A stretch of DNA of 64,000 nt from a bacterium (GTDB taxonomy: Bacteria; Electryoneota; Electryoneia; Electryoneales; Electryoneaceae), in assembly GCA_020444265.1 (NCBI GenBank), contig JAHLLH010000004.1, positions 62,001-126,000 on the forward strand, given 5' to 3'. Both the position numbers and the translations under genes were made by a program. Shown piece by piece: positions 24,209 through 25,148 of the stretch; position 1 is the stretch's first letter; the number at the start of each line of letters is the position of its first letter. Under the pieces are notes generated by a model. It ran no database searches and was not told the DNA's origin. It saw only the letters and a list, made by a program, of their open reading frames with translations.

Positions 24209-24221
24209 GGTTAGGTGGGTA

Positions 24222-24355
24222 TCGTTGCGAGGAATGGTCATGGCCTGACGAAGCAATCTCGTATCTCTCATCTGGTTTCCCTGCGCGCTTTGCGCGCAGC
24301 TTCGAGCGGGTGAGGGATGTGAGACTGCTTCGTCACGTTGTTCCTCGCCGCGACA
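24222..24355. repeat. Long palindromic repeat, copy 1
   Basis: 134 bases bounded by imperfect terminal inverted repeats. The left end reads TCGTTGCGAGGAA...GAAGCAATCTC; the right end reads GAGACTGCTTC...TTCCTCGCCGCGACA. A central perfect hairpin is CTGCGCGC-TTT-GCGCGCAG. Together with copy 4 it forms the longer subtype, which has ATGGCCTGA in the left arm. No coding potential. Confidence 0.85.
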
Positions 24356-24375
24356 CACCCCATTGTACTTCCTCG

Positions 24376-24499
24376 TGTCGTTGCGAACGAAGTGAAGCAA
24401 TCTCGTATCTCTTATCTGGTTTCCCTGCGCGCTTTGCGCGCAGCTAGGAGAGGATGAGTGGTGTGAGACTGCTTCGTCACGTTGTTCCTCGCCGCGACA
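24376..24499. repeat. Long palindromic repeat, copy 2
   Basis: 124 bases, nearly identical to copy 3 and starting 144 bases before it. The same terminal arms (TGTCGTTGCGAACGAAG and its imperfect complement) and the same central GCGCGC hairpin are present. It is joined to copies 1 and 3 by the same 20-base spacer (24356-24375 and 24500-24519), so the three form a tandem array. Confidence 0.85.
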
Positions 24500-24519
24500 C
24501 ACCCCATTGTACTTCCTCG

Positions 24520-24643
24520 TGTCGTTGCGAACGAAGTGAAGCAATCTCGTATCTCTTATCTGGTTTCCCTGCGCGCTCTGCGCGCAGCTTCGAGCTGGAG
24601 AGGGATGTGAGACTGCTTCGTCACGTTGTTCCTCGCAGCGACA
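24520..24643. repeat. Long palindromic repeat, copy 3 (abuts the GIY-YIG gene)
   Basis: 124 bases, same layout as copy 2, with one change in the central hairpin loop region (CTGCGCGC-TCT-GCGCGCAG). Its right end is only three bases from the stop codon of the GIY-YIG gene. Confidence 0.85.
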
Positions 24644-24646
24644 CTT

Positions 24647-24934
24647 CTATCCTGCTTCAGAAAGGTCAACCCATTTAGGGTTAACAGACTGAATCAGCTC
24701 GATCTTCTTTCTGCGAGATCCACCCTTAATACGTTTTTCCTCGTTGATGGCATCTCTTACTTCGCTGAATTCTCTATAATAAAGGAGCTTGCACAGTTTA
24801 TACTTCTTTGAGAATGCTCCCCCAACACCATGTTTGTGTTCCTCAACGCGTCGCAGAAGATTGCTGGTGACACCTGTGTATAACACAGTATTATTCCGAT
24901 TTGTCATGATGTAGACATAGTAGGTTTTTTTCAT
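24647..24934 (-). CDS. Small GIY-YIG nuclease enclosed by palindromic repeats
   Basis: 95 residues, preceded by GGAGA at seven bases. It is a stand-alone GIY-YIG domain: the GIY-equivalent YVYIMTN (about 6-12), the YIG-equivalent LYTGVTSNLLRR (about 18-29, with the catalytic Arg), His in EEHKHG, and the metal-binding Glu in INEEKRIKGGSRRKK (about 64-78). Such proteins cut DNA and are usually annotated as UvrC-like or UPF0213-like without known function. Here the gene sits exactly between repeat copies 3 and 4. This suggests that it acts on, or was carried in with, the repeats, much as RAYT transposases act on REP sequences. That relationship is inference. It is AT-richer than the neighbouring genes. 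Confidence 0.88.
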   Translation of the reverse strand: MKKTYYVYIMTNRNNTVLYTGVTSNLLRRVEEHKHGVGGAFSKKYKLCKLLYYREFSEVRDAINEEKRIKGGSRRKKIELIQSVNPKWVDLSEAG

Positions 24935-24978
24935 TTTGTTGTCTCCATTTGTATCTGTCGCAAGGTAATACGTCAGTT

Positions 24979-25112
24979 TCGATGCGAGGAAGACCTATGG
25001 CCTGATGAAGCAATCTCGTCTCTCTTATCTGGTTTCCCTGCGCGCTTTGCGCGCAGCTAGGAACGGGTGAGTGGTACGAGACTGCTTCGTCACGTTGTTC
25101 CTCGCAGCGACA
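24979..25112. repeat. Long palindromic repeat, copy 4
   Basis: 134 bases, same orientation and subtype as copy 1 (left arm TCGATGCGAGGAAG...ATGGCCTGATGAAGC; right arm GAGACTGCTTCGTCACG through CGCAGCGACA). Copies 3 and 4 flank the GIY-YIG gene on both sides. The central hairpin is conserved. Confidence 0.85.
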
Positions 25113-25148
25113 CACCAAACGCCCGGCTGAAGCCGGGCGTTTGGTGTG
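25111..25148 (-). terminator. 17-bp perfect hairpin downstream of the PIN-PhoH gene
   Basis: CACACCAAACGCCCGGC (25111-25127), loop TGAA and its exact complement (25132-25148) begin inside the last bases of repeat copy 4, 18 bases beyond the stop of the PIN-PhoH gene. There is no long T-tract on either strand, so termination is likely but the signal is not canonical. Confidence 0.5.

Follow-up and report, generated by a model that had tools for sequence, protein, structure and literature searches.

REP palindromes are among the commonest repeats of bacteria. Di Nocera et al. (2013) split them into GTAG and CGTC superfamilies, classing Neisseria dRS3 and Rickettsia RPE-4/RPE-6 as CGTC-REPs and naming S. 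meliloti and A. lipoferum among the hosts of the latter (PMC3733652). HUH enzymes are thought to move GTAG-REPs (PMC3733652, PMC3116915); the CGTC-REPs are said to "apparently lack a dedicated transposase," no tie to transposase genes having been found (PMC3733652).

The window analyzed here is a stretch of 64,000 nucleotides from contig JAHLLH010000004.1 of a bacterium in the Electryoneaceae, and it contains a small GIY-YIG nuclease gene lying among palindromic repeats. Judged by their sequence, these repeats are assigned to a named superfamily, the CGTC-tagged REPs, with which the small GIY-YIG loci described below have in common the tag, a stem starting with AT, a CCA/CTC-type tail, and inverted dimers. 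In alphaproteobacterial loci the hairpins display the CGTC-REP pattern itself (8–9 bp stem starting A, T; 4–5 nt loop; CCA-like tail), whereas the window family departs from the canonical form in its GT/AT first pairs, its 5-bp outer stem, and its longer self-complementary loop. No enzyme was reported for the CGTC-REPs in PMC3733652, whereas here a GIY-YIG gene is found between them; in S. meliloti and A. lipoferum such genes also lie between CGTC-REP repeats, and a gonococcal record carries one inside a dRS3 cluster. The first-pass annotation of the locus knew of no named system. The repeats do have a name, but the link to a nuclease is absent from the open literature searched (subscription papers and preprints fell outside it): no paper tying GIY-YIG genes to such repeats was found there, and queries combining "GIY-YIG" with "extragenic palindrom," or using sequence motifs, returned unrelated matches only.

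The GTAG-REP/REPIN and RAYT systems offer a close parallel. They too possess a tetranucleotide tag with an imperfect hairpin, inverted pairs with a spacer, numerous copies that lack a gene, a small enzyme gene set between repeats of its own kind, class-specific pairing, and compensatory stem changes (PMC3116915, PMC3733652). However, the RAYT enzyme is an HUH Y1 single-strand transposase and its repeats are tagged GTAG, whereas here the protein is a GIY-YIG nuclease (PF01541) and the tag is TGTC/CGTC. The locus appears to work like REP/RAYT yet is no member of it, for it lacks both the HUH enzyme and the GTAG tag.

Free-standing GIY-YIG homing endonucleases (I-TevI, Seg-type) resemble the present genes in fold, in catalytic residues, and in that the gene interrupts its presumed target. 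That target is a unique gene for I-TevI and Seg-type enzymes and a dispersed hairpin repeat here, and the ~95 aa of the present proteins hold no separate DNA-binding domain. MITEs and their parent insertion sequences are similar in that short gene-less derivatives share their ends with a gene-bearing element, but the elements considered here lack a DDE/HUH transposase and total 350–500 bp including the gene. A target-site duplication, as in MITE/IS elements, was not seen, the flanks of filled and empty sites being too diverged to define insertion ends or such a duplication.

The palindrome island and its nuclease

The features of the island and its border are as follows.

24220..24355, + strand: palindromic element copy 1, long subtype, 136 bp; left tag degenerate (TATC), right tag GACA
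24356..24375, no strand: spacer CACCCCATTGTACTTCCTCG, 20 bp, between copies 1 and 2; identical to 24500–24519
24376..24499, + strand: palindromic element copy 2, short subtype, 124 bp; TGTC...GACA
24500..24519, no strand: spacer CACCCCATTGTACTTCCTCG, 20 bp, between copies 2 and 3; identical to 24356–24375
24520..24643, + strand: palindromic element copy 3, short subtype, 124 bp; ends 3 bp from the GIY-YIG stop codon
24647..24934, − strand: GIY-YIG nuclease gene, 95 aa, intact; PF01541 at 1.8e-13
24977..25112, + strand: palindromic element copy 4, long subtype, 136 bp; left tag degenerate (TTTC), right tag GACA
25111..25148, no strand: terminator-like inverted repeat, 18-bp arms, 100%; between the island and a PhoH-like gene

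All four copies share one orientation, with copies 1–3 in tandem at a 144 bp register, and each consists of two tagged hairpin arms in inverted order (a head-to-head dimer). The CGTC/TGTC end tag appears as TGTC in copies 2 and 3 and as a terminal GACA in copies 1–4. Folding as single-stranded DNA gave z values of −7.7, −3.8, −4.0, and −6.2 for copies 1, 2, 3, and 4, respectively, and 0 of 200 shuffles folded as well as any of them. An Rfam scan of the window yielded no match.

The first-pass annotation had described an island of four palindromes in one orientation, the first three in tandem with an identical 20-base spacer and the outer copies longer than the inner; all of this stands, and some 30 relatives of the copies exist elsewhere in the genome. 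Its copy lengths were 124–134 bases; those read here are 124 bp for copies 2 and 3 and 136 bp for copies 1 and 4. The gene does sit between copies 3 and 4, but the flanking, called exact, is so only on the stop side (three bases, 24644–24646); the ATG lies 42 bp from copy 4. Nor are the tags uniform, given the degenerate left tags of the outer copies, which have TATC and TTTC for TGTC. The island had also been extended to 25148. The perfect inverted repeat at 25111–25148 is a separate, intrinsic-terminator-like structure that belongs neither to copy 4 nor to the element.

Residues Y8, Y19, R29, E66, and N85 of the window protein are conserved among its relatives, and the catalytic Tyr, Arg, Glu, and Asn (Y19, R29, E66, N85) are invariant across 63 sequences. 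Modeling with AlphaFold2 gave a confident GIY-YIG fold (pLDDT 93.8) with little beyond the fold itself, and this predicted fold, the catalytic residues, and the PF01541 match place the protein in the GIY-YIG nuclease superfamily. The closest solved structures are those of the UPF0213 (YhbQ-like) and Slx1 proteins (1zg2, 7cq3) and UvrC-N, with I-TevI also among the nearest; Z values are modest (maximum 7.7), and the fold therefore speaks for family and not for function. Slx1 is a nuclease that cuts branched DNA; no link of the Slx1/UPF0213 proteins to repeats is known. No relatives of the window protein were found in phage records.

Within the source genome GAAGCAATCTC occurs 23 times, versus 0 for a reversed control pattern, and BLAST located the palindrome family at 31 places (E<0.01). 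In the 41 arms read genome-wide the closing stem pair is T-A in 19, C-G in 20, and broken in 2, which means that it was preserved through a double change in 39; nearly all elements for which both arms were read combine one T-A arm with one C-G arm. The inner loop stem of the arms (L028–L057) varies in sequence and keeps its self-complementarity, e.g., AATCCGGC..GCCGGATG. Because the inner loops differ between copies yet remain self-complementary, structure appears to be conserved more than sequence. A rough ORF-based look placed many copies close to gene ends. Plain terminators were rejected as the identity of the repeats, which are tagged, dispersed, and covarying.

Four GIY-YIG genes were detected in this genome with PF01541, namely UvrC and three small ones. 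Each of the latter lies between palindromes, and the three families differ: TGTCG[T/C]TGCGA..GAAGCA[A/G]TCTC at the window gene, GTCATTCCGGGCTTGACCCGGAATCC at locus L001, and GTCATCCCCAGCCCACAAGCC..GGGGATCC at locus L002. The L001 family is small genome-wide; the other two are multicopy, with 31 matches each (E<0.01). A chance landing of the gene in a repeat island was ruled out by these three families in one genome together with the cross-phylum statistics given below.

Small GIY-YIG genes and hairpins across phyla

A protein search with one genome per species, unbiased by flanks, returned at least 549 relatives, and the best 80, from many phyla, were analyzed. Under a strict rule, TGTC/CGTC-tagged hairpins lay within 400 bp of the gene in 69 of these 80 loci and on both sides in approximately 40, in line with the belief of the first-pass annotation that similar repeats occur near such genes elsewhere. 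The flanks of these 80 carry TGTCAT..ATGACA hairpins; the stems among the relatives include ATTGC/GCAAT, ATTCT/AGAAT, ATCCT/AGGAT, ATTCC/GGAAT, ATCCC/GGGAT, ATGTT/AACAT, and others. Hairpin density beside the relatives' GIY-YIG genes is 4.6/kb within 300 bp versus 0.12–0.44/kb beyond 600 bp on the same contigs.

For comparison with uvrC, all GIY-YIG genes were listed in 45 related genomes and the window's own (46). The strict hairpin rule was satisfied by 33 of 61 small GIY-YIG genes versus 7 of 31 uvrC genes, and tagged hairpins on both sides accompanied 23 small genes and no uvrC. With a density of 0.52/kb beside uvrC in the same genomes, the repeats are much rarer there than next to the small GIY-YIG genes, contrary to the first-pass annotation's refuting case of repeats equally common beside unrelated genes. 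With no motif imposed, each upstream flank was also compared with its reverse-complemented downstream counterpart, tRNA-associated small genes being set aside; inverted repeats matching across both flanks scored above threshold in 31 of 46 small GIY-YIG genes versus 0 of 27 uvrC genes (p=1.8e-10). The hairpins nearest the genes point mostly outward (L/R 38 vs R/L 10), and at 36 of 139 loci gene and two flanking hairpins together make up a unit of 346–506 bp. The association of small GIY-YIG genes with palindromes, and its generality, are well supported and in our judgment almost certain.

Other small GIY-YIG genes have a tRNA gene on one side and a second copy of the tRNA 3′ part on the other (L209, L221, L222, L229, L235, L238, L242, and L244, in each of which the gene lies about midway). 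These look as if they were tRNA-targeting free-standing homing nucleases that restore the tRNA gene upon insertion. On a plasmid of Planktothrix agardhii (L182:1498–1782) a gene-bearing element adjoins drmA of a DISARM defence system, and a related plasmid has different genes and repeats at that place.

Pairing of nuclease with hairpin class, and polymorphic sites

Gene and hairpins form a unit across many phyla, and the gene goes together with the class of its hairpin. Among 106 proteins, nearest neighbors had a common stem class in 56% of cases versus 20% by permutation. For nearest relatives from different phyla the figures were 51% versus 20% (p=0.002; p=0.004 with labels shuffled inside phyla), and the protein tree required 36 stem-class changes versus a shuffled-label mean of 62.6 (minimum 54). 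After subtraction of the copies beside nuclease genes, the copy number of a repeat class was higher where its cognate nuclease is present (p=5e-4, 2e-4, and 8e-5). Five of the six non-cognate comparisons were not significant; the sixth, of ATTGC repeats with TCC-type nucleases, was (p=0.004), from which it follows that shared ancestry contributes, and neither the pairing nor the copy-number tests fully remove it. Some genomes are rich in one repeat class and yielded no nuclease to match it (e.g., G012, G003, and G016 for ATTGC), a state for which loss, assembly gaps, or cross-recognition is needed. Gene-bearing copies may be missing since some assemblies have copies at the ends of contigs. The 5.3-Mb genome G026 has 413 copies of GTCATTCC..GGAATCCAG; many of these are paired in inverted orientation, and many sit where a contig ends.

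The genomes concerned contain dispersed palindromes of matching class that lack the gene, and sites are polymorphic. In Azospirillum lipoferum 4B a REP pair, the gene, and a second REP pair lie between sufB and sufC; the element is absent from A. ramasamyi, A. oryzae, and Azospirillum sp. B510, which are 95–96% identical around the site. Beside gltA, S. meliloti Ak57 carries two tandem units (L177:1119–1977), REP-gene fragment-REP followed by REP-gene-REP, the first of which has intact REPs and a nuclease gene cut down to its 3′ part. At the same site Sinorhizobium sp. K101 has a single palindrome with the outer bases of S. meliloti Ak57. On pSymB of S. medicae ml20 (L293), a REP and approximately 31 first codons of the nuclease gene are followed by unrelated sequence, and several strains of S. 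medicae show this truncated match again. In 50 kb of pSymB from S. meliloti 1021, the hairpins present were all of the chance sort.

Three states exist at one site on Sphingobium plasmids. Seven strains have the gene-bearing element, of the form CGTCACCCCGGGCTTGACCCGGGGTCCC-gene-GGGACCCCGGGTCAAGCCCGGGGTGACG in TomMM7A. TYG64 has at this position the lone palindrome CGTCACCCCGGGTCAAGCCCGGGGTGACG, also present with two mismatches in TYG74; its sequence is that of the left REP's left half followed directly by the right REP's right half. In TYG72 and TYG65 both gene element and palindrome are absent. Break repair that places the gene in a lone REP would account for these states, and slippage between the REPs that removes the gene would do so equally well. 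More generally, the difference between lone and gene-bearing sites can also come from gene loss by slippage between inverted REPs. The lone palindrome is a putative recognition site of the nuclease.

The insertion-site polymorphism anticipated at the outset is accordingly present in Azospirillum, Sinorhizobium, and Sphingobium but not in the window's own lineage, where the PhoH locus of relatives is without the GIY-YIG gene, mostly without hairpins, and too diverged for junctions. Together with repeat density, site polymorphism favors the initial suggestion of a REP/RAYT-style system in which a GIY-YIG nuclease replaces the transposase.

A candidate minimal mobile element

We consider it probable that these loci represent a selfish element of minimal size, in which action of the nuclease on its cognate hairpins spreads both gene-bearing and gene-less palindromes. 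Such an element would comprise a GIY-YIG gene of ~95 aa between TGTC/CGTC-tagged imperfect hairpins (REPs). The nuclease would recognize and cut the cognate hairpin, whether in single-stranded DNA of the lagging strand or extruded as a cruciform. If the break were then repaired from another copy, a lone palindrome would become gene-bearing, in a homing-like manner, and such repair would homogenize the repeat family. Occasionally a cut hairpin or hairpin pair might be captured at a new site, spreading gene-less palindromes much as RAYTs are supposed to act on GTAG-REPs/REPINs. Hairpin cleavage and the mode of insertion we infer. The weakest step is the carriage of copies to unrelated sites by a hydrolytic nuclease with no recombinase partner, for which host repair is assumed; because GIY-YIG enzymes hydrolyze DNA and do not join strands, the nuclease leaves insertion at new sites unexplained. 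That the GIY-YIG nuclease alone is the mobility enzyme of this cross-phylum hairpin DNA (the CGTC-REPs: dRS3, RPE-4/6, and others) is proposed tentatively, our doubt slightly exceeding our belief.

The rival that survives best, though we think it unlikely, is that the gene simply homes into pre-existing REP palindromes that are spread by other means. The three Sphingobium states, with a lone palindrome made of the outer halves of the flanking REPs, speak for such homing, and Sinorhizobium presents the same picture; I-TevI among the fold relatives and the small GIY-YIG genes adjoining tRNA genes also agree with it. Against it stands the rise of repeat copy number with the cognate nuclease, which suggests that the nuclease drives the gene-less repeats as well, although homing nucleases could instead persist where targets are common.

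Still less probable is that an unrelated enzyme acting in trans, e.g., an HUH/Y1 transposase, moves the repeats, with the GIY-YIG gene carried along as cargo or settling there secondarily. Movement of the analogous GTAG-REPs is attributed to HUH enzymes (PMC3733652, PMC3116915), and the source genome does encode three HUH Y1_Tnp genes, but within 1.5 kb of these no tagged hairpins or window-family motifs were found (0 of 3). Moreover, Di Nocera et al. report CGTC-REPs to be unassociated with transposase genes (PMC3733652), and cargo would not be expected to follow hairpin class across phyla. One Y1 gene (L300) is bounded by a separate palindrome of its own, TTATTAGTGACAGTTACTAATT.

A domesticated nuclease that serves the host by trimming REP hairpins or keeping them in check, with little mobility, whether in palindrome maintenance or in mRNA-end or replication-block processing, accords with the Slx1-like fold and the many copies near gene ends but is very improbable in any of these forms, given patchy, polymorphic presence of selfish appearance, several differing genes per genome, wide scatter across phyla, and decayed copies such as the Sinorhizobium gene fragment. 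Support for a host role would come from a conserved locus and a deletion phenotype independent of REP copy number, and none was seen.

A selfish element of gene and cognate hairpins, as preferred here, would provide a candidate enzyme for the CGTC-REPs, one of the two large REP superfamilies, described in 2013 as without a dedicated transposase. With a matching nuclease gene in dRS3 islands of Neisseria as well as in rhizobia and many uncultured lineages, this candidate would be open to direct testing. At 350–500 bp it would be one of the smallest gene-bearing mobile elements, and it would suggest a route for the co-evolution of homing-type nucleases and hairpin repeats. If the nuclease alone is indeed the mobility enzyme, these elements would spread by structure-directed cutting and host repair, unlike transposases and classical homing.
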